Shown here: positions 28,562 to 63,900 of the stretch, in pieces
Layout: every line of letters starts with the position of its first letter
How positions within the stretch are numbered: the stretch's first letter is position 1
Assembly: GCF_009730915.1 (NCBI RefSeq)
Contig: NC_052476.1
Location: 20,627,257-20,691,256, forward strand
DNA: 64,000 nt
Direction: 5' to 3'
Source: Dioscorea cayenensis subsp. rotundata
Lineage: Eukaryota; Streptophyta; Magnoliopsida; Dioscoreales; Dioscoreaceae
Translations under genes and position numbers: made by a program
The notes under the pieces: generated by a model
Told to the model about the DNA's origin: nothing
Database searches by the model: none
Seen by the model: only the letters and a program-made list of their open reading frames with translations

Positions 28562-31500
28562 ATGGCCATGGCGGCTCTTGCGCTCCATCAGCCTCTCCCA
28601 TGGCGGACAAGATCGAGAACCTTGAGCCCGAGAAGCACCCATCTACGATCTCAGAAGGCTCGCCTCTTTTTCACAGTGTATTCCTCTTCGACGCCATCAG
28701 AGCCCAGCACACAGACCGCGGAATCTTGTGTCAATACGGGGTTGTCTCTCTTCAAGAAGGGCAGGGTGAGGAGGATCATTCCGTTCTATGTCTCATCCTT
28801 TGTTTTGATCTTATTTTCCTTGTTTCTATCTTCAAATCTTTGCTGAAATGATAAATTTCCAGTTCTAATGCGTGATTGCATGAACCCTTTGTGAAAATTT
28901 CTAAGGATTGGATGGAATTTGGATGTGGAGTTAGTATAATGTGAATTTTTTAAATGGAAATGGGATTTTTCCAGTTCAAATGCTTGATTAACAAACTTCT
29001 ATGAAGGTTTCAAAGAATTTGACTTGATACCTGTGTTCTAGCATAGTTTCTAATTTAATTAGATGGAATGCATCATTGAGGTTAGTACAAAATCTATCTA
29101 AATGCAACATTTGGTGAATTGAGAATCATAGATTCTAGTTTCTAGGTGAGGAAACAACCTTCATGTATGTAAAATAAGGCTGTACGATTACCCTTCTAAA
29201 TCATACATTTGCCAACTTCTGCTAGTTTTTGGCTCGACTCTCTTTGTTGTCTTTTCACTAAGTTGTTGTTCTCAACTTTGACTAATCATTTCATTTGTTT
29301 ATCTGTAGTAAGGGATAGAGTCATGTTGAATGATTTATTGGTTTGGTTTTACTTCACTTGCTTGGTTTGTTGGTTCATGTAGTTTGCTATGGTACTTTAG
29401 ACTTGAAAAATAGAAGATTTCATTTTTGGACAAATCCTTGGTAATGTGGCTTTGTCCGAATATTGTAGGTAAAGGATGCCCTTTTGCAGTTTGAAAGCGC
29501 ACTAGATTTGAATCCAAATCCTAAGGAAGCTCAAGTAGCACTTTACAATAAAGCTTGTTGCCATGCATACAGGTATAACATCCATTGGAAATATCTTTTT
29601 ATTTATTATCATTATCATTTTTGGAAATTGAAATTGTCATTTTTTTTAGTGAATAGTCCATATTGCTGATCCTTGTGATTGGCTTGATTTTGAACAATCC
29701 ACCTGTTTGTGTTTGTGGGCGCTTTTCTTAGCTGATACTAGGGACAGTTTGTTTCTTTTAATTTTGCTCTGTTCACTTAACTGCATTTCATTTGAAGAGT
29801 GGACTATTGATGTTATAGGTTCAACATTCTTTTTTTAGGAACATGCCAGTACATGATATTTATGAACATTCCCTAAGCTCTTTACTCTATTGCATACATT
29901 TGGCTTTGAGTTCTTAGTTTTCGTCCCTTGTTTTGTGCATCATAATTGGATTGTAGGTTGGATTTCTTGGTAATCCATCAAGTTCAAAATCGATGAATGG
30001 GGCTTCTCATTCATCCAAGTAAAAATAATTGATCTTTTTGTCCTATCAGCTCCTGTGAAGTTCAAATATTCTCCTTTCATCGACTGCTTTAAAGGACTTG
30101 TAACTGTGTGTTGTTGCGAATTTCTTCCTTTGTAGTTATAATCATGTCTTGTTTGAGGCAGAGGGGAGGGAAGGCAAGCAGTGTCATGTTTACGAACTGC
30201 TTTGCGAGACTATAATCTCAAATTTAGCACTATTCTTAATGATCCTGACTTGGCATCATTCAGAGCTTCACCTGAATTTAAGGAACTACAAGACGAGGTA
30301 TGTGATTTACTTCTTTCCGTTTCTTACCTTTTTAATTTTTAGAGTGCCAATTTATTTCTTCACTCTAGCATTTAAGTGAAACATTTCCTGGATCTCTTGT
30401 GGCTCAGAAATTCTTACTTGCTCATTCTCTTAATATTACAGGCAAGACAGGGTGGTGAAGATATTGGTTATGGATTTCGAAGAGATCTCAAACTCATTAG
30501 TGAAGTTCAAGCACCATTTCGTGGCGTAAGAAGATTCTTTTATGTAGCCTTGTCTGCTGCAGCAGGAATCTCGATGTTCTTTACTGTGCCCAGGTTCATA
30601 CGTGCAATTAATGGTGGTGAAGGTGCTCCTGATATTTGGGAAACTGCTGGAAATGCTGCAATCAATATTGGAGGTAAATTAGCAGACATCCTTGTACGGA
30701 AGGCATGGTGTTCTTTAGTATACATTTTTATTGTTGTACCATGCATGCCAACTGTTTTTGTTCTTGTTTTATGTATACGCTTGTTGAATTGATCAAGCCT
30801 TTTGAATCAGCACTCTGCAGGCATTGTGATTCTCGTGGCATTGTTTATCTGGGACAATAAGAAAGAAGAGGAACAACTTGCTCAAATATCACGAGATGAA
30901 ACACTCTCCAGACTGCCTTTACGGCTATCAACTAATAGGATTGTTGAACTTGTCCAGCTTCGAGACTCAGTTAGACCGGTCAGTACATTTTTCTTCTAAT
31001 GGACACTGTCAGTTAGCCCAGTTAGTATCATTTTTCTTCTTAATGTACATTACTCAATGTACCATTACCGTCAGGTTAGGGCGGTTTGTATCATTTTCTT
31101 TCTCAATGTTTATCACTCCATAGACTGTCAGTTAGGCTGATTAGCATCATTTTTCTTCTCAGTTTTCATTACTCAATTGACCTTTGTTGCCTTCTCATTC
31201 CATCACAGGCTTACTGGAAGCATTGCCTTATAACTTGCTCTAGTTTGTGCAATTTGACTTGCATCTTCTTGTTGGCTTTAAATATGCAAAAAGAATTTTT
31301 TATGTGTTGTTGAAAGATGTGCCTTCAGGTTATTTTGGCAGGGAATAAGGAGACTGTAACTAGAGCAATTGAAAAGGCTGAGAGATTCCGAACTGAACTT
31401 GTCAAAAGAGGTGTTATTCTTGCTCCTGTCATCTGGGGTGAGAATAGGAAAGCTTCTCTTGAGAGAAAAGGATTTGGCCTTCCCGCAAAAGCTGCCACAT

Positions 31501-39456: not shown

Positions 39457-42263
39457 TCATGAAGATTCATCAGCTGGTTTTGGATCTTCAGGCTTTGCCT
39501 CAGACACACCATCTGTTCCCATCTCAGCCTTGAGGTTGTTGATGCTTTGTTCCAGTTCATCAATCCTGCTTCCCATCTCATCTAGTGCGCTGTGGTTAAA
39601 GACAAACTCTACATAGGCTATCACAACAATAAAAATCAACCCATCTTCAACTGTCAATGAGCTAAAACTCTCTAAAGGCGCAAGTCATGGATTTGGATTA
39701 TTTTTGCACCACTAAGGCATTTCCCTTTAATTTACTGCAGTCCCTTAAGGTCATTCTCATATGGCTAGACCTAAAATGCTTAAGAAATTATGCATTGTAT
39801 ACAAAAAAATTGGCATAATATTGTAAAAGCCAAGAAGCATCAAGAGAACAAAGTTCAATAAAGAAAGCTAGTGTAAGAGTTGAGATAGATAACACGTCAG
39901 TGCAGCAGATATAAAAAAGAACAGAATGTTCAAAAGGATATTCTTTCCGATAAGCGACTCAGACATTGTCTGGAACCTAGTTTGCTGCAAACAAAATAAT
40001 TCAGCATAAAGAATGCAGCATGTGCGTGCATGTGTCAAAGAGAGAGAGAGAGAGAGAGAGACCCACCATTTGCTGAAGAAGATTTTGTACCTAGACAAGA
40101 AACCGCAAGATTAAGCAAGGTCAGAAGATAATTTTACATTGATAAAGATGAGGATAGAACGGGAGGAAAAAAGAGGGTTATTTTTTACCAAAATATAAAA
40201 CTAAAAAAATGTTGAGATGATTTCAAGCACAACTATAACATGGAAATCTTTCATGCACACCTCTTTCTGGCCCATTTATGTAATTTCATGGAGTAAAAAA
40301 ATTGTTAAAAAAATTAAAATAGACAACTCACAAATACGGTCATATCTGCAGTGCTTTGTTGTAGGTTATCTGATTCTTGTCCAGCCTGAAACAAACATCA
40401 AAGATACTGAATTATTGGATGGGGTCAACCAAGAGTGGCAGTGAAATGATCAAGAATCATGCATGCAATCCAAGACACCTATAACCAAACAAAATATAAG
40501 CTAACTTACCTAACAAATTAAGGTTTAGATGATAACAACGTCTACATCAGCAATTTTAAAGTACAGTACTCATGAATTATACAGTAAAGCAGACAAAAAT
40601 AGTCCATGATATGACTCTGTTCTTATCATACAGCCAAAGTAAATTATTTATTTTCTCACATTACGTTCAGATACAATATATTCTCTCCATGTGTTGACTA
40701 ACTCAAGCACTTTTGATGCTTGACAAGTCCTTAGATATATCGGTGAACACATAAAGTGAGCAGAATATCCAATTACTACATCTCTTTAACATTTAAGAAG
40801 GCACATATATCAAATAAGTTCTCTTACTCTTCACTAACAGTTAGCATTCTTCCAATTTCCATTAAGTGAGGAAGCAACACCACAAAAGCACATAAGCATC
40901 ATAATAATCACTATATCGGTTGGATTTAATAACTTGCTGGTAGGTTGGGGCTTATGGCCTTCTTACACAATAAAATAATGGTAAAAGGAGAAAGACCCAA
41001 GATATCTTAAGACAAAGATATAAAGATATCCTTTCCAAGAAAGACATTGCATTCAGATTTTTCTTCGCATGATGACTGAAGGCATGTTTTGAATAATAAA
41101 GTTCCTTTCGAGTAGAAAAGATCATAGGAAGGAATACACTGAAGCAAAATCCAACATGCACTCAGCTGCATGGCCGCCTGGTTGGAACAAGAAGATGAGG
41201 CTCAAACTTCCCAAGAAAAAGAAAAATCACTGATATATTTCAAAATAATAATGTGTATTGTTGAGATAAAGAGGTGGCGGAGTTCTTAAACAACAACCAA
41301 ATTTGATGCTTGACTCACAAATCAAAGGCTGATACAGGTTCTTTCATCTATTGGTAGCAAAGAAGACAAAGGTTCTAGTTTAGGATAGGGATAAACACAA
41401 GGATTTCAAGCATGCTTGATCTGAAAATTCTTAAAATACTTCAATCTATGACAATCAAGTCAGGGCCCACAAAGAGACAACAGTTTGAAGAGAAACCTAA
41501 TAGTTTCCAATCCCACTGTTTCAAATGTTCAAAAGGATGAGATACATGATGATGCAAAATGGAACAAGAGGAGCTTAGATTAGAAACAAGAGAAACTAAT
41601 GATGCTCCAAGAGAACAAAAAAGGAGTTGAAGATGAAGGAAGCCAAACAAACCATAAAGAATCAATGAATAAATAAAAGAATAAAGTATTTCCACTTTCT
41701 AATCCATCATGCTTTCCCGATAAAATAAAATAAAAAAAATCTCAACCTACTCTGATCTTGTTTATAACTCCCAGTGTCATCAATTCCACCAATTTTTACT
41801 CAAAAATTCACCAAAATTTAAAATGTTAAAACTATAGCTAAAACAAATGAAAATTCCAACATTTACGAACCATCATCTGATCTAACATTTCCAATGAAAC
41901 ATCATATGTTTTTACAAACCCTAGACGGATTGAAACAGTAATACTACACGCAAACAATGATGGAGAGATTAAAACTTAAAACTACCATCTTATTTACAAC
42001 ACCAAGACTTCAATTCTACCATCTTTTACTCCAAAATTGAAATCTCAACTAAAAATTCACCAAAATTATAATGCAATTTAACAAAAACAAAAGAGTGAAA
42101 AATTCCAGCATAAATAACACAACAAGTGATCTAAACATTCAAATCAAGCACCATATGTTCCTACAAACCCTAGATGAATCGAAACAGCACCGTGTTTGGA
42201 AGCAAACGGTGAACAAATTGAAAATATGGATTGAAAGATTGAAGAGAAAGGGAATCAAACCAT
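39457..42263 (-). CDS. HSBP: Heat shock factor-binding protein (HSBP)
   Basis: Exons 40385-40332, 40090-40067, 39984-39942 and 39584-39457 join in phase to encode QSTADMTVF, VQNLLQQM, QTRFQTMSESLIGK and then IDEMGSRIDELEQSINNLKA with an acidic Ser-rich end. This is the small coiled-coil HSBP, which binds trimeric heat-shock factors and attenuates the heat response. The hydrophobic heptads sit in the first and third segments. The junction between the last two exons needs a U12-type AT-AC intron (39941-39585). A GT-AG reading would force an in-frame ALDEMG variant with no GT donor. The start is inferred: ATG at 42263-42261 directly followed by gtttga would give M + AGQESDN and an 83-residue protein, a normal size. 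That first exon is weakly supported; the rest is strong. Confidence 0.85.
39585..39941 (-). other. U12-type AT-AC intron in the HSBP gene
   Basis: The 5' splice site after GGAAAGA is ATATCCTTT, the U12 consensus. Near the 3' end lies TCTTTAAC, matching the U12 branch-site consensus TCCTTAAC at seven of eight positions. The intron ends in GCAC eleven bases after the branch adenosine. Joining A/TA gives Ile and keeps the HSBP frame (IGK-I-DEMG). There is no GT donor close to the exon end. Confidence 0.88.
41757..42240. repeat. Diverged tandem duplication, ~240 bp unit, in the HSBP first intron
   Basis: Collinear words recur ~240 bp apart: TTCA.TTC.ACCA.TTTTTACTC.AAAATT, AAAATTCACCAAAATT, AAATTCCA.CAT..A, AAACAT..CATATGTT..TACAAACCCTAGA and GATTGAAACAG/GAATCGAAACAG. 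The copies lie just inside the inferred first exon. Confidence 0.7.
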
Positions 42264-42902
42264 TTCGAAGCTCGGATTTGGATGCGAACTCAGCGAAATC
42301 GCTACAACACTCTCGCAACTCACGCTCTCAAAAACAGCGAAAGAGAGGGCTTCGCCTTCAAATTTCAAGCATTGGGTTTCTTTTGCTATAATTACCAATA
42401 TGACCCTGAATGGGCCTTTTTTCACTTCAGTCCCTGTCTTTACTTTCCTTTTGTTTCAGCCCTCTTAACTTTGAAATGGAATTTATGGTAATGAAAAATA
42501 AATAAATTTGCTGCCATGTGAGAGAGAGCTTCCCTTCAAATTTCCATTATATTCTTTGTTAAAATTACAAATATACCCCTAATCTTTTTAACTTTCTAAC
42601 ATATATGTATGTATGTGTGTATGTGTATACGACTCGATTATCTCCTTCCCTTATATTATAGTTATTTTCATCCTCCATATTTAGCGACACTATGGTGAGG
42701 TCAAGTGATTAATGAAAAAATAACTCCCTCATAATATATAGTCGAGACATAATAATGAAAAAATATGTGTTTAAAATAAGTCATCTATATTATAAAAAAT
42801 ATATTATTAAATATGTAAATTAATTTTAAAAACCATATACACAAGAAAAATTATATAAGAGAAAATATTAAAAAAAAATCACATACATAAGACACAAGCA
42901 AA
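42264..42902. other. HSBP upstream region
   Basis: No gene is seen. AT-rich DNA lies between the HSBP 5' end and the LINE insertion, with a GTATGT-rich run near 42603-42632. Confidence 0.5.
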
Positions 42903-44141
42903 TCCTGATAGTAGTTGGGCTAAAATCATTCATTATAATTACTCAACTGGTAGCCCAAATGGAATCTTTTTCCACAACCCACCTAGAAACAAATCTTTCT
43001 TTTGGGCAAGAGTGAACTCTACTTTACTTCCCTTCCGATCCTGTATACACAAAATCATCAGAAATGGCTCAAACACATCTCTTTGGTTTGACCGTTGGCA
43101 TGATGGACAATTGCTCAAAGATCTCTGGCCAACACTTTTTTCGGATTGTACATCTCCTTGGATAAATATTAGACAATTCATCCAACTTATTAATTGTCCA
43201 GAGGTTCTCTTTTACTCTGCTCCCTCAGACATGTTATCCTATCTTTTAGAGATCATTCCAGATTGCTCTCATAGTCAGGAAGATTTCTATTCCTGGGCAT
43301 TGGAAAAAAGTGGAAAATTCACTGTCAAATCATTTTATAAATTCCTCATTGATGGTGGAATGCGTAGTCCACTTTATTCTCATTTCTGGAAAACCCGTTG
43401 TCCTAGCAAAATAACTCTTTTCTGCTGCCTCGCTGGGGAAGATAAAATTCTCACTTTCACAAATCTCTTCAAAAGAGGGTGCAACACTCAAAGCTCCACA
43501 GACACCTGTGTTCTATGTCACAAAGCTTCAGAAAATGTTAACCATCTTTTTCTTGAATGTGATTTCTCCAATCGTCTCTGGGGTTTCTTTTCTCAAATCC
43601 TTGGTTTCAACCTTTCTCCACATTCAATTTCCACTCTTTGGACTTCTTGGATTCCATCTCTTATCCCACAACACCGAACCCTCTGGGATCTTATTTCCCG
43701 TGCAATCTTGTGGAATATCTGGATTGAACGAAACACTCGTATTTTCCATTTGACTGCTTTACCGGTTTACAATATCTTTATTAAAAGCGCTAATATGCTC
43801 TCTCTTGGTACTCAATTACGGGGAGATAGTCGCGAACCGGGTCCTTACTCGAAGCTTCACTCGAAAAATCAAGCGCTCTCTTAACTTCTACAACGCTAGA
43901 GACTCAAACCCTGTTGGAGAATCGGACTCTGATCATGCGCAGGAGTAGTTGCTCCTTTTGATGGCTTGGATAGGCTCGAGGGACTGCAGCGGTGTCTTCC
44001 GCCTTTCCTAACTCCTTCTCTCCATGTCTTTTATTTTCCTGTTGTTTCTAGTTCCTCTCCTCACTTCTGATGAGAGATTTTATCTTGTACTCTGTCTCTT
44101 TTTATTCAATAAAGCTATGGTTTATCCACATTTATTTCAAA
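42903..44141 (+). mobile_element. 5'-truncated LINE with 14-bp target duplication
   Basis: AAGACACAAGCAAA flanks both sides (42889-42902 and 44142-44155), a perfect 14-bp target duplication. The insert begins in the middle of the second LINE reading frame and ends with a 3' UTR carrying TTCAATAAAGCTATGGTTTATCCAC and a short T/A tail. 5' truncation with a variable-length target duplication is the hallmark of target-primed reverse transcription. The intact remaining frame and perfect duplication suggest a young insertion. Confidence 0.93.
42904..43884 (+). pseudogene. LINE ORF2 C-terminus with zf-RVT domain
   Basis: The frame is open from the truncation point to TAA at 43882-43884. It encodes the tail of a plant LINE polyprotein: a stretch with SFFWARVNS, then SLWFDRWHDGQLLKDLWP, the YSWALEKSGKFTVKSFY segment, and the reverse-transcriptase zinc-binding module (KITLFCCLAGEDKI, CVLCHKASENVNHLFLECDF, LWNIWIERNTRIFH). 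Endonuclease and reverse-transcriptase domains are missing. The first ATG, at 43012, is internal to the ancestral protein, so any product would be a domain fragment. Confidence 0.92.
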
Positions 44142-44745: not shown

Positions 44746-44869
44746 ACTTTCTTCCCATCTTTCCTCTCCCTCCATGCATGCATATACCTTTCCATCCTCT
44801 TCACCACCCTTTCTCTCTTGACCTTTTCCCCCTCCTTCTCACCAGATCCACTTCCTCTTCCTCTCTCCA

Positions 44870-45424
44870 ATGGCCACCACCGAACTCCGTCACCGTCCAC
44901 CAACCATCACCGCCACCACCACCACCACCTCCAAATCCAGAAACTCCGGCAAGAAGATGGCCATGGCAAGAAGAGGACTCAAATCTTTAGCCATTGCCAT
45001 TTCCTTTCCTTTAGCTTTAACAACCATTGTCCTTCTTCTCTTCACCACCTCTTCTTCTTCTCAAACTCATTCTTCTAGACCTTTCTGGTACCCACCAGAA
45101 TGGGCTTTCCATTTAGCCACTGTTTCTTGTTCTTCTCTAATGGGTTTATCTTCTTGGTTAGCTTGGGCTGAAGGTGGCTTTCACCGGCGGTTGGAGGCTT
45201 TTCCGTTGTACTTAGCTCAGCTTGTGTTTGGCTTGGCTTGGGGTCCTCTTCTTTTTGGGAAGGGTTCACCGAAGGCGGCGTTGGTGGTGGCCGTTGGGCT
45301 CGTCGTCGCGTTGGGTGGCTGTGTTCGGTGTTTCCGGCGAGTGAACCCTATTGCGGCTGATTTGGTTAAACCTTGTTTGGCTTGGGCTGTTTTCTTGGCT
45401 CTGTTTAGTTATCATCTTGTTTGA
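44870..45424 (+). CDS. TSPO: Translocator protein TSPO/MBR family
   Basis: An intronless 184-residue protein. A plant-type N-terminal extension rich in Thr, Ser and basic residues (~1-40) precedes the five-helix TspO/MBR domain. This runs through LAIAISFPLALTTIVLLLFT, the hallmark PFWYPPEWAFHLATV, LMGLSSWLAWAEGGF, YLAQLVFGLAWGPLLFG, and the final VKPCLAWAVFLALFSYHLV. Plant TSPO is a stress- and ABA-induced membrane protein of the ER/Golgi that binds heme and porphyrins and is degraded by autophagy. The ATG at 44870 gives the usual plant length; in-frame ATGs at 44957 and 44963 would remove most of the extension. Two ABRE elements stand upstream. It appears intact. Confidence 0.93.
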   Translation: MATTELRHRPPTITATTTTTSKSRNSGKKMAMARRGLKSLAIAISFPLALTTIVLLLFTTSSSSQTHSSRPFWYPPEWAFHLATVSCSSLMGLSSWLAWAEGGFHRRLEAFPLYLAQLVFGLAWGPLLFGKGSPKAALVVAVGLVVALGGCVRCFRRVNPIAADLVKPCLAWAVFLALFSYHLV

Positions 45425-46630: not shown

Positions 46631-49600
46631 CAAGGACGGAATTAAGGGAGGGCTAGCAGGGGCTTCAGCCCCCCCTCAGCCATCGGCGGTCTTCTTTGGT
46701 GGCCGGAAGACCCAAAAACCAGCCCCCCTTGGTGGCCGAGCAACGGAGCAACCCAACCTGCAGCTTTGCTCGAGCTCGATGTTCCCAGCCGGCGGCAACC
46801 AGCAGCCCTTCTCCGATAGCGGCAGTTAGCATAGGATGAAGTTGAAGGCTGAAGTTGAAGTCTTGGATGAGGTCCTGAGGATGAAGATGAATGATGAATT
46901 GATGATGGCTTGAGCTTTGTCATTGATTTGAGTGGCTTGGCATGTGATGTGGGCCCATAACTTAATTATAAACTTTACTACTTCAGTTTTTCAAATTTTT
47001 CATTAATTTCTTTGAGATTTTAATGGAAAAAAAAAACTAATGTAACTAAATAAAAAACTAAAAGCAAAAAGCCTTGTTGTGGTTGTGGCCTTGTGGGCCG
47101 GCCGGCCAGCCCATGGGCTATAAGTTATCATTATCAAAAACACTCGAAACATTCCTTGATATTCCGTTTCCCGATTTCAAAAATCCCGAACATTGGTTGC
47201 TTGGAGTCTAACTATCTTAGAGTCTTGGAGATAATAGTGAGTATGTTACATTAGTAATTTAGTATTATTTTTATTATTGCCATGAATGAATGTATTACTC
47301 CTTTAAATATGAATGAATGTATAAAATTCATAGGGTGAAAAAAATAGAACATGAATGTTAAAACTTCACTTTTTATAAAATATGCCCACAATGTGTTTGA
47401 TTAAATGCCTCAATGAGTTAAAATGTTGAGAATATCAAATATTAATATATATCATAATGTATATATGTATAATTAAATAATGTTTAGTGTTAAACACTTA
47501 AACCTATATAGCAAAATGTAAAACAAGATAGACTTCAATAAGACTAGTTATACCAATTACCAAAGGTTTTATATTCATTGACACATAACAAAATGGATTC
47601 AATAACATAATAAAATTGGTTTTATAAGACATATTCAATCATTTAGATGCATGAATGTTAGCATTACCATGTTTAAACAATTTTGTGTTTGATTCTTCTA
47701 ATGATGTTAGTTGTGTCATGATTAACTTTTTTGCTTGTTATTTTTTTATAGTCTATAATTAAAGTTTTTTTACTTTTTTTTTATAGATCATGGACAAATT
47801 TTTGATCAAACGACCAAGGAGTGAAGAGTCATCAAATACTCCTAAAGTATCATTGGATTCTAAATCAAGCGAGGAGAACATTAATACAAATTTTAATTTC
47901 AACGACATTGTTAGTGACCCCGGATTACGAAAATCAATTGAAGACTTTGATATTGGGATTAGAGATCAAGTTAGAAGAGAGTATTTGACTAGAGGCCTAT
48001 GTCAACCAATTGGCCACAATTTTCCACAAAAAGATTATGGCAAACAAAAGAGAAGTTTTCAAGATGCTTGGTTTAAACAACATCCATGGTTAGAGTATAG
48101 TATGACAAAAGATGCGGCATTTTGTTTTTGGTGTTATCTTTTTAAGACAAGTAGAGGAAGCTGGGAGAAGATGCATTCACCAAAAATGGGATTCAATAAT
48201 TGGAAAAAAGCATTAGAAAAATTCGTAGAACATATTGGTGCCATAAATAGTATGCATAATGATGCAAGAGTAAAATTTCAAGGGTTCAAAGTCAAAGACA
48301 AAGTGTGTCACACTTGTTGGCTACACATTCACATGAGATGGAGGTTGCATATCGTATTCGTTTGACGGCAATTTTAGATATGACTCGTTTTCTTTTTAAG
48401 CAAGGTTTACCTTTCCATGGAAATGATGAGTCTTCAAATTCACTAAACAAAGGCAATTTTCTTGAGTTGCTTGATTGGTATAGCCTACGAAATGAAGAAG
48501 TTTGGAAGACAGTCAATCAAAATGCCCCTGGAAACAATCAATTGACTTCCCCAAAAATTCAAAAGGAGTTGGCAAATGCTTGTGCAACGGAGATTACACT
48601 TGTTATTGTTGATGATATTGGGGATAATTATTTTTCTCTTATGGTTGATGAAGCCCGAGATGCTTCAATAAAGCAACAAATGGGAGTTGTTTTACAATAT
48701 GTGAATAAGAATGGACATGTGATAGAGCGATTCCTTGCATTGGTTCATGTGCCTGATACCTCTGTAATTTCTTTAAAGAATGCCATTGATTGTTTATTTG
48801 CTAAACACAAGTTGTCTCTTTCGAGGTTAAGAGGGCAAGGATATGATGAGGCTTCAAATATGCGAGGTGAATTCAATGGTTTGAAAGCACTTATTTTAAA
48901 AGAAAATCCATATGCAAGATATGTACATTGTTTTGCTCACCAACTACAATTAGTGGTTGTTGCGGTTGCTAAAGAGAATCGAATTGTGAGTGATTTTTTC
49001 CAATATGTTAATATGATTGTTAATGCCACCAGAGCGTCATGTAAAAGGAGAGATCAACTTATGCAACATCATCATGATAGATTGGTTGAGCAATTGGAGA
49101 AGGTGGAGATAGTCAGTGGTAAAGGAAAAAATCAAGAATCCAATTTAGCATGACCCGGGGATACTCGTTGGGGATCGCATTACACTACAATTCTCCGGCT
49201 AATTTCTATGTGGACCTCAATTTTAGAGGTACTCCAAAATGTGCATGATGATGGGGCTTCTACTAACAATAGAGGCATAGTGCCAAGTTTGATTGACAAA
49301 ATGGAGAATTACCAGTTTGTATTTGTGATGTACTTGATGAGGCGTTTATTGGGTATGAGTTGTCACTTGCGTTACAACAAAAAGACCAAAATATTGTTCA
49401 AGCCATGCGATTGATTGAAACGGTGAAAGCTTGTCTTCAACATTTTAGGGAGACAGGATGGGAGGAGTTTTTGGGAGAAGTTACCTCTTTTTGTAAGGGT
49501 AACTCAATTGATGTGCCTAATATGGAGGATAATATGCCAATTCGTGGTCGTTCTAAGCGGGAAGGACAATTCATTACTCATTTTCACCATTATCGTGTAG

Positions 49601-50449
49601 AGATTTTTTTGTGAGGTAATTATTTTTTGTATTTATTATAGTTTTATAAATCTCATTAATTTATTCTTTTTATTAATATTCTCTCTATTTTATCATTATT
49701 TCAATATTAGGTTATTGATTTGATTTCTCAAGAAATGCTCAACCGCTTTCCTGAAGCTAGCACGGAGTTACTTCTTTTGGTATCATGCCTTGATTCTAGG
49801 GACTCATTTTCTAAATTCAACATCCATAAGCTACTCCGTCTTGCAGAGTTGTACCCTGAAGATTTCTCAGGGACTGAACACATGATGCTTGAGGATCAAC
49901 TTGCTACTTTCATTTATGATGTGCAACATAATGATGATTTTGCAAATATCAGAGACTTGGGAGGTTTTGCTATAAAGATGGTTGATACCGGCAAATGTAC
50001 TATTTTTCCCCTCATTTATCGTCTTATTGAGCTGCCATTGGTTTTTCCAGTTGCGACAGCTAGTGTTGAGAGGGCATTTTCGGCGATGAATATTGTGAAA
50101 TCTGACTTGCGCAACAAAATGGGAGACGAGTGGATGAATGATAGCATGATTGTCTATATTGAGAAAGAGGTTTTTGCAACTATTGACAATGAGGCAATCC
50201 TACAAATGTTTTCAAAAAATGCAAACTCGCCGTATTCAGTTACCTCCTTTAAGTAGCATGCGTCGCACAGATAGCAGTTCTAGGTCGAGTGTGCATAGAT
50301 AAACGTTTTATGTTTTTTTTGTAATTGTTTTAATTAAATGTCACAATATCACACTATTTTGTATCGAATACAATTGTTATGTTGACTGAAATATATTTTT
50401 TGACACTTTGTCCTCATCCCCCCATCTTTATGTCCTGGTTCCGTCCCTG
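46631..50449 (+). mobile_element. hAT-superfamily DNA transposon, full-length but inactivated
   Basis: Imperfect terminal inverted repeats bound the 3.8-kb element: CAAGGACGGAATTA at the left, and CAGGGACGGAACCA as the reverse complement of the right end. The outer 8 bases are TCTCAGAT and CTCTAGAT; they agree at four positions and differ only by C/T transitions, so they may be a decayed hAT target duplication. The interior carries one transposase gene of the TTF-type zinc finger/hAT family. The GC-rich left subterminal region (46640-46830) contrasts with AT-rich surroundings. Confidence 0.82.
47790..50256 (+). pseudogene. hAT transposase (TTF zinc finger / DUF4371 / dimerisation domain), broken
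   Basis: The start codon at 47790 begins MDKFLIKRP. A TTF-type zinc-finger region (QDAWFKQHPWLEYSMTKDAA, FCFWCYLF), the RNase H-like catalytic region (MVDEARDASIKQQMGVVLQY, GQGYDEASNMRGEFNG, VHCFAHQLQLVVVAVA) and the C-terminal hAT dimerisation domain (PVATASVERAFSAMNIVKSD) follow. It is broken by a frameshift near 48290-48305, a TGA at 49151-49153 where CGA (Arg) is expected before PGDTRWGSHY, and another frameshift near 49345-49370. A probable intron spans about 49614-49710. The stop is a CG-to-TG type change, as cytosine methylation produces. Most domains are readable, but no active protein can be made. Related non-autonomous copies may have used active relatives. Confidence 0.88.
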
Positions 50450-60900: not shown

Positions 60901-63900
60901 TTATACTTGTTGGTGCATATTTTTCTTTTTCTTTTTTTCTTTTTTCAATTTTTTATTCCATCTTATTTTTTTATTTTTTTGATTTTTATTATTTTAGGTG
61001 TCCAATAAGCTCTATGTATTTTTAGAGGCTAAAATTGTCTAGTGAGTGGAGTATTTTTTGCAAAATTTCTTAGGTAATACATTGAGCTGGTAGTAGTGTG
61101 GGCATATCATCATGCTACTGTTGAAGCATTACCCCATAGGTTTACATCATGAGCTTGCTGCATACGCACATCAGGTTAAATAACAACCGGTTTTTAAACT
61201 GACTGATTTAAAACCACAATTATTTATCTGTATTGATTGGTGGACTAGCTGTGTATTGTTGTTCATCTTTGGTGGAATGATGATGATACCCATTAGATCT
61301 GTTGTATAATCTAATTAGCATAATAATGAAGATTTACCTTATGATTTTGTGACTTTTTAATTGCCGACTGACTTCTAATGTTTGGATGAGCTGATTATGT
61401 GCCAACTCTGTGACATGATTTATCGCATTTCCATCTTTATCACCATATCTTTCCTGATAATTTTTTGGATAATATGTTTGGCAGTGAACTGGTGGTTGAT
61501 TGCCTTTTTTTCTTAGTAGCTTTTCTATGTCTAGTCTCAAGGTTCACGAAACTAGGCTCTGGACTCCTGGCTGCTGCTATAAATTTTGTTGTCCTCTAGT
61601 GTCAATAGTTTTCCTTGTTCTGTGTTATTCCATATGTACAATGACTTGCAGCCATGAGTACAGGACAATTGGTTTTGTAGTTGTCATCATGAAATATTAT
61701 ATATTCTGCTGTTTGAGTTCTGCATATTATTGGTGATTTAATCTTATTTAACATTTTCTCTTGTTTTGCAGTGAAAATACAAAGAGCATGCTGTTATCAA
61801 CTGCATACATACACTTGGAATGCAAAGAATTTATTAAATTCACTTCAGATATTTCCTCTGCAAGCCAACGGATTTTATTATCTGGCCCTACTGGTTTGCT
61901 GCTTTATCTAGATCATTTTAGTAGCTGATGTGTTTGCATGTTTCATGCTTGTTCTAACAAAAAAATTATTTTTGCTAAACCTCGTTTAGGATCTGAAATT
62001 TATCAAGAAACTTTGACGAAGGCCCTTGCTAAACACTTCAATGCTAGGCTTCTTATTGTAGATTCTCTTCTGCTACCTGGTGTAAGCTTTTGTACTTCCC
62101 CATTGGAGAATTCTGTTTATATATGTATTCAAAGACTTCTGAAAGTTATGCTAGCTTTGAATATAGATGTGCGTCACCATCACTTCAAATATTAACATGA
62201 TTATTTATTATTAAATTTATTGAATTTTTTAGTGCTATAAAGATGCTATTATTATTCATTTTGGAAAATAATGACAGGGATTGCCATCAAAGGATTCAGA
62301 GCCTATCAAAGAAGGTGGAAAAAGTGAGAAACCAAGCAATCCTTCTAAACAACGAGCTGGACAAGTTGAAACAGTACAGCTTAAAAGACCCGCTTCCAGT
62401 GTTGAGGCCGATATTGTAGGGGCATCTGCATTTAATTCCCAATCCTTGTTAAAGCAGGAGACTTCAACCGCATCATCAAAAAACTATACCTTTAAAGAAG
62501 GCAGGCTGTTTTGCTATATTGTTCTCATCGTGTACTCTTTTGTAGGTAACCTTGATTTATTGACTCTATTGGTTTAATATTAACTTAGTGTTTATAATTC
62601 TTTGCTTAGGTGATCGGGTGAGATATGTGGGTCCATTGCATTCAACAGGATTTTCTTTGCAAGCTCCCCAAAGGTATGTTCCTGTTTACAGGCCTCGATC
62701 ATCGTAAATGTGCTGTTCATATTTCAATTACTCCAGTATTATCTCAGTAAGGGGCTTGGATTTATATGATGCCTTTCATATTCCAAATTCTATCAGCTTG
62801 GGATTTACACTACTCTCTCTGTTCTTTAGTTGCTCACGAATATTCTCCTCTAATCAAAGACTCATTTGACAAATTTTTATTCATGGCATCTGTACTTCAT
62901 CTCATGTATCAAATGGCATGGTCATGCTCTCAGGTTATTTGAATAAGTATTTATATTTCCAACTTTTATTGGGACCAGCTATACATTTAGGCTTTTGGCC
63001 CATTTACAACTTCAAATTTCATACTAGAACTTTGGCATAAGATTTGATGAGTTTCTCATAGGGGAACATACATAGTTTCATTCAGGTGGATCACTGTGAT
63101 TTTAACTTGGTGGCGACCAAAGTACTTGTATTTTATCCACTTGCTCAAGGTTAGCTGTACAGTGCATGGTCAAGAACTTGTTAGATACTACCTCATGTTT
63201 AGCATATCCTTAATTCATTAATCACTGTTTTTGGAATGTACTTAATTTTCTAGATGTTGAAGTAGTACAGTGACAGTCAGATTTGGATTTATTTCAAAAA
63301 ATGTTTCTTTGGGTATGTAAGGCTTGTTGGTTTGGCATACTTGGTCTGATTAAATTAGAAAAAGATAACTCTCTTCAGCAGCCGTTGCTTATTTATCCGT
63401 GCAATGTATTCTTGGGTGTAATGTAATGTCAGAAGTACCAATGAGCATACTTGCAAAATCATTGGCAACATCCAGATTCTTTTGATTATTCTCCAAATTG
63501 TTTCTTTTTGTTGTTACTGTATGCGGATTCTTTTCTTATATATTGTTTTTAATGTTATGTTCAGGGGTCCAAACTATGGTTATAGAGGGAAAGTTGTTCT
63601 TACGTTTGAAAATGAATCCTCCAAAGTTGGTGTGCGATTCGATAGGCAAATTCCTGATGGTAATGATCTTGGGGGTGTTTGTGAAGAAGATCGTGGGTTC
63701 TTTTGCCACAGTGAGTGTCCGAGGGAGCCATGCTCAATCATGAACAGAGTACTTATTGATTGCTTTGGTTGATTGTTTCTATCTTACAATTTTTTTCAGC
63801 TGACTTACTTCGTCTTGATTATTCTGGTGGTGAGGACAGTGAAAGGCTTGCCATTAATGAGTTGCTAGAGGTCTGATGTAGTTTTTTTGTATCATGCTGG

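Follow-up and report, generated by a model that had tools for sequence, protein, structure and literature searches.

At this locus, an HSBP gene of Dioscorea cayenensis subsp. rotundata is interrupted before its last exon by an intron that begins with AT and ends with AC, which raises the question of whether it is an ordinary intron of the minor, U12-type class or a misread intron of the major class. The gene lies on the minus strand of the window, i.e., the whole 64,000-nt stretch of contig NC_052476.1 that was analysed. Its five exons carry 3, 54, 24, 43, and 128 coding bases, with intron phases of 0, 0, 0, and 1, and their joining produces an intact frame of 83 amino acids, MAGQESD...KPADESS (Table 1). 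Introns 1–3 are of the GT-AG type, and intron 4 is of the AT-AC type. The 83-residue product matches the Pfam family HSBP1 (PF06825) with 84.4 bits, compared with a curated cut-off of 28.6 bits. As described below, intron 4, the last of the four introns in this plant gene, is almost certainly an ordinary U12-type AT-AC intron.

Table 1. Positions of the HSBP gene features in the window
Feature	Position	Strand	Remarks
Exon 1, coding part (start codon alone)	42261..42263	-	ATG directly before the GT donor, in frame with exon 2; presumed position
Intron 1, GT-AG, 1875 nt	40386..42260	-	
Exon 2, 54 nt	40332..40385	-	equal length in the C8 paralogue
Intron 2, GT-AG, 241 nt	40091..40331	-	
Exon 3, 24-nt microexon (VQNLLQQM)	40067..40090	-	equal length in the C8 paralogue
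Intron 3, GT-AG, 82 nt	39985..40066	-	
Exon 4, 43 nt, phase-1 end	39942..39984	-	equal length in the C8 paralogue
Intron 4, probable U12-type AT-AC, 357 nt, phase 1	39585..39941	-	from sequence; an intron of this kind at the matching position in the C8 paralogue
U12 5' splice site ATATCCTTTT	39932..39941	-	10 of 10 nt identical in the C8 paralogue
U12 branch site TCTTTAAC	39595..39602	-	
3' terminal AC	39585..39586	-	10 nt from branch site to end; AC and spacing also in the paralogue
Exon 5 including the stop codon, 128 nt	39457..39584	-	

Several other features were recognised in and around this gene. Skipping of the exon 3 microexon would leave the frame intact and remove eight residues. On the plus strand, likely transposon remains lie beside the HSBP gene (42859–43881 and 48263–50253); they comprise a match to zf-RVT and open frames that contain DUF4371 and hAT dimerisation domains. 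Likely host genes, also on the plus strand, include a member of the TspO/MBR family (44822–45421), a Low PSII accumulation1/Rep27 gene (DUF3493; 30376–30789), and an Xrn1 SH3-like exon (63422–63769).

Minor-class signals of intron 4

The consensus of U12-type AT-AC introns consists of ATATCCTT at the 5' site, TCCTTAAC at the branch site, and a terminal AC (PMC2831892). Intron 4 (minus strand, 39941–39585) reads ATATCCTTTT...TCTTTAACCACAGCGCAC. Its 5' site agrees with the consensus at all eight positions from +1 to +8, and its branch site, TCTTTAAC, agrees at seven of eight. The distance from the branch-site C to the AC end is 10 nt, and in U12-type introns the branch site usually lies about 8–20 nt from the 3' end. 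U12-type introns have no polypyrimidine tract (PMC5932401), and none is present in intron 4, where just CACAGCGCAC separates the branch site from the end; in a 27-nt stretch that includes the branch site and stops 3 nt short of the intron end, 14 bases are pyrimidines. The A+T content of the intron is 65.3%.

These signals also show complementarity to minor snRNAs of the same genome. Positions +4 to +9 of the 5' site could pair in full with AAAGGA of U6atac, and the branch site could form seven pairs, one of them G-U and with one A bulged, with GUAAGGA of the U12 snRNA. By itself, the pair of motifs occurs at least once in 37 of 100 Markov-1 random windows of equal size, and its rarity was therefore dropped as a stand-alone proof. 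The U12 assignment is made because the motif pair coincides with the junction required by the protein and recurs in a paralogue. In the first-pass annotation, a U12-type AT-AC intron had been proposed for this HSBP gene. That proposal is supported by the agreement of splice signals, family fit, and paralogue, and the coordinates given for it, 39585..39941, are exact (minus strand, 357 nt).

Splicing of AT-AN minor introns requires CENATAC, and that of the AT-AC introns of Arabidopsis requires DROL1, the plant orthologue of the main CENATAC interactor (PMC11039992). In the yam genome, a CCDC84/CENATAC-like gene was found, the best exon of which scored 110.2 bits. The U12 snRNA gave a full-length match of 96.1 bits, and four U6atac loci lay above the cut-off (87, 85.3, 74.2, and 44.1 bits); a recheck with the whole Rfam library covered the U12 snRNA match and two of these U6atac loci. 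No match to U4atac was obtained in this genome, and such a miss does not show absence.

In minor introns, both ends are read by the U11/U12 di-snRNP, and U11 at the 5' site then gives way to U6atac. On the model of known introns of this class, U11/U12 would recognise ATATCCTT and TCTTTAAC of intron 4, and U6atac would then take over the 5' site from U11. Splicing would join AAGA to TAGATGAG, thereby restoring the codon ATA (A/TA, Ile42) within the coiled coil. Thus read, intron 4 is presumably removed by the minor spliceosome in the plant.

The HSBP paralogue on C8

A search of the plant's own genome with the whole HSBP protein gave eight matches. Exon 5 was matched in two genes, the window gene (C6) and a second gene on C8 (L002/L010), and one further match corresponds to the window gene. 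The remaining five were weak (L004–L008, E values of 4–5) and were discarded as unrelated. A PF06825 search of the genome gave no match, probably on account of the short exons; none was obtained in 14 control genomes either, so this search is uninformative. The product of the C8 paralogue itself scores 79.0 bits for PF06825, above the cut-off of 28.6 bits. The exons recognised in this gene, which do not include exon 1, measure 54, 24, 43, and 131 nt.

At the identical codon and in the identical phase, the C8 paralogue contains a 597-nt AT-AC intron that starts with ATATCCTTTT and ends with TTTTCTTAACTGCAATGTAC. Its first 10 nt are identical to those of intron 4 in the window, and its branch site, TTCTTAAC, lies 10 nt from the AC. 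The branch sites of the two introns were matched by their position from the 3' end, as a global alignment left them unaligned. No AG is present between the branch site and the end of the C8 intron, the nearest one being located 38 nt before the end. The CAG that precedes the end of intron 4 in the window is therefore not common to both genes. Among the 52 in-frame pairs of splice sites in the scanned range of the C8 paralogue, none is GT-AG, and some are GC-AG.

The two HSBP proteins share 47 of 64 residues, with a Ks of about 1.24 and a Ka of about 0.17 (Nei-Gojobori, 64 codons, with only 35.5 synonymous sites). The intron bodies are 47% identical, a value within the range of 39–51% (mean 45%) given by 20 shuffles. 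The sole local BLAST match between the introns is the shared first 10 nt (E = 0.31), which is not significant alone and takes its weight from its position. Since Ks is about 1.24 and the intron bodies are at the shuffle level, the U12 signals of both HSBP genes look selectively kept. The intron was presumably already of the U12-type AT-AC kind before the HSBP gene was duplicated, and it has presumably been kept as such in both copies. Among the sequence data, the intron of the C8 paralogue is the strongest evidence for the probable U12-type nature of intron 4.

Two side observations concern the surroundings of these introns. The U12 5' site of the C8 paralogue is preceded, 77 nt upstream and within intron 3, by a second, decoy-like ATATCCTTT. 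In both HSBP genes, a TAG acceptor follows the AC at a distance of 3 nt (39582–39586 of the window, minus strand), and an AT-AG product shorter by one residue is possible.

Alternative readings of the exon 4/exon 5 junction

GT, GC, and AT donors were combined with AG and AC acceptors within a scanned range around the junction, and the pairs that keep the frame and contain no stop codon were retained. The resulting 95 pairs comprise 33 AT-AG, 25 GT-AG, 16 AT-AC, 14 GC-AG, and 7 GT-AC combinations. The earlier assertion that only the AT-AC reading keeps the HSBP frame is thus false as worded; family fit is what distinguishes this reading from the others. Human HSBP1 (PDB 3ci9), the sole solved relative retrieved by sequence search, has the same coiled coil and aligns with the yam protein without gaps over residues 12 to 56 (45 residues). 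This alignment spans the intron 4 junction, where yam HSBP has GKIDEM and human HSBP1 has GRIDDM. When the 95 pairs were scored against the human segment, 39941/39585 ranked first with 138, followed by a score of 123; the best GT-AG pair, 39922/39590, with a product eight residues longer, reached 118. Of 19 placements of equal length around the junction, the AT-AC placement alone restores GKIDEM. Similarly, among eight in-frame readings compared with Pfam HSBP1, the AT-AC pair 39941/39585 has the top score of 84.4 bits, and the rival readings score 75.5, 70.5, 68.5, 64.6, 62.3, 61.7, and 51.4 bits. The reading with 75.5 bits, an AT-AC pair at 39951/39595 that gives the same protein length, was rejected: it starts with ATCGGAAAG, removes part of exon 4, and has its 3' end within the branch site.

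A major-class GT-AG intron, likeliest from the GT at 39922 to the CAG ending at 39590 and with a protein eight residues longer, is very improbable. This pair is in frame and free of stop codons, retains 64.6 bits for HSBP1, and tops the 25 GT-AG pairs in the comparison with human HSBP1 (118), but it loses about 20 bits and adds eight residues to a coil that aligns with the human protein without gaps. Three further GT-AG or GC-AG readings fare no better, with 51.4, 61.7, and 62.3 bits. GT donors were scored by means of the nine-position consensus of major-class donors. The donor at 39922, TCT/GTTCTT, matches it at three of nine positions, compared with five, six, and seven for the other three donors of the gene. 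All seven GT donors in the vicinity of the junction match at two to five positions, and the one at 39964 reaches five but cuts into exon 4. The paralogue on C8 also argues against a major-class intron, as no AG follows its branch site within the intron and no in-frame GT-AG pair lies in the scanned range. The CAG itself, previously described as a tempting acceptor 6–7 bases upstream, was slightly misplaced: it ends at 39590, i.e., 5 nt before the intron end.

It is likewise highly unlikely that the intron is a U12-type AT-AG intron, spliced solely or as a minor product through the TAG 3 nt downstream (39582), with a coil shorter by one residue. The TAG is present in the C8 paralogue too, and the product is in frame, comprising 82 residues with 70.5 bits for PF06825. 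However, one residue would be lost from the ungapped coil, the Pfam score is 14 bits lower, and the score against human HSBP1 is 118 instead of 138, while the TAG is accounted for by Ile-Asp coding sequence. The least credible alternative is that this HSBP copy is a pseudogene or that the motif match is coincidental; although the motif pair by itself occurs in 37 of 100 random windows, the 83-codon frame is intact across five exons, Ka (about 0.17) is low relative to a high Ks (about 1.24) against the paralogue, and the identical kind of intron signals is found in the C8 gene.

Known relatives and the heat response

To date, members of the HSBP family have been described as HSF-binding attenuators, a statement made for relatives (PMC12582567); by analogy, yam HSBP is a putative protein of this kind, which would bind and attenuate heat shock factors. 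The HSBP1 gene of Arabidopsis consists of five exons, the classes of which are given as 0,0,0,0,2 (PMC10499616). For this gene (At4g15802), the values are exactly the yam phases if they denote coding phases as commonly written in annotation files, the comparison being with a phase string and not with a sequence. According to the same source, two HSBP genes of Brassica rapa have two and four exons (PMC10499616), counts that are either truly different or mis-annotated. In rice, exon 5 of OsHSBP1 has been targeted by two guide RNAs (PMC12922113). A known counterpart of the yam intron is intron 4 of plant CBP20 (PMC5932401), which is likewise AT-AC, with a U12-type branch site, an A+T content of about 65%, and a conserved position; it belongs to another host gene.

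In the portions of the literature searched, no statement on the class of the last intron of At4g15802 was found. Nor was a statement on an HSBP minor intron found in print, intron databases and supplementary files being outside the scope of this search, and HSBP is not mentioned in the minor-intron papers that were text-searched for it. Intron 4 may already have an entry in an intron database. In any case, it belongs to a small known class of introns. Representative transcripts in the Arabidopsis reference annotation contain 81 AT-AC introns (PMC5716242). The AT-AC share of U12-type introns is 26% in Arabidopsis and 23% in soybean according to one database (PMC7367187) and 4.8% according to another survey (cited in PMC5932401). 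The first-pass annotation had also claimed that ordinary annotation would misplace HSBP intron 4. This is plausible because an ab initio gene set of one Arabidopsis accession contained zero non-canonical introns (PMC5716242).

A further proposal, which is compatible with an ordinary U12-type AT-AC intron, is that intron 4 serves as a heat-responsive switch, in which heat or stress alters minor-spliceosome activity and thus sets the level of full-length HSBP. In B. rapa, heat changed how both HSBP genes are spliced, but in the text consulted this event is not tied to a particular intron (PMC10499616). In human cells, activation of p38MAPK by stress leads to more U6atac and more splicing of minor introns, but the text consulted does not show this mechanism for plants (PMC3728624). 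In the yam gene, retention of intron 4 would lead to a stop after 65 residues and a protein truncated halfway through the coil, with Pfam positions 2–28 of 51 still matched, and the AT-AC intron is kept in both HSBP genes found. The retained-intron RNA might escape junction-dependent decay, because intron 4 is the last intron found. On the other hand, minor introns may persist for long without any regulatory role, as much of the evolution of minor introns may be explained by neutral processes (PMC10639083). On balance, a heat-responsive switch is unlikely. The broader idea that the plant HSBP minor intron is an ancient, selectively kept control point, the removal of which is altered by heat to yield a half-length coil and a brake tuned by splicing, is more doubtful still. 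Regulation of the heat response through intron 4, as had been suggested at first, is a conjecture.

The AT-AC reading provides what is probably the correct gene model for a conserved heat-response attenuator, in which annotation limited to GT-AG introns would add or lose coiled-coil residues. It also offers a clean case in which U12 signals appear to be kept in two paralogues while the intron bodies have become as dissimilar as shuffled sequence. Should the splicing of intron 4 respond to heat, the minor spliceosome would be tied to the shut-off of the heat response.
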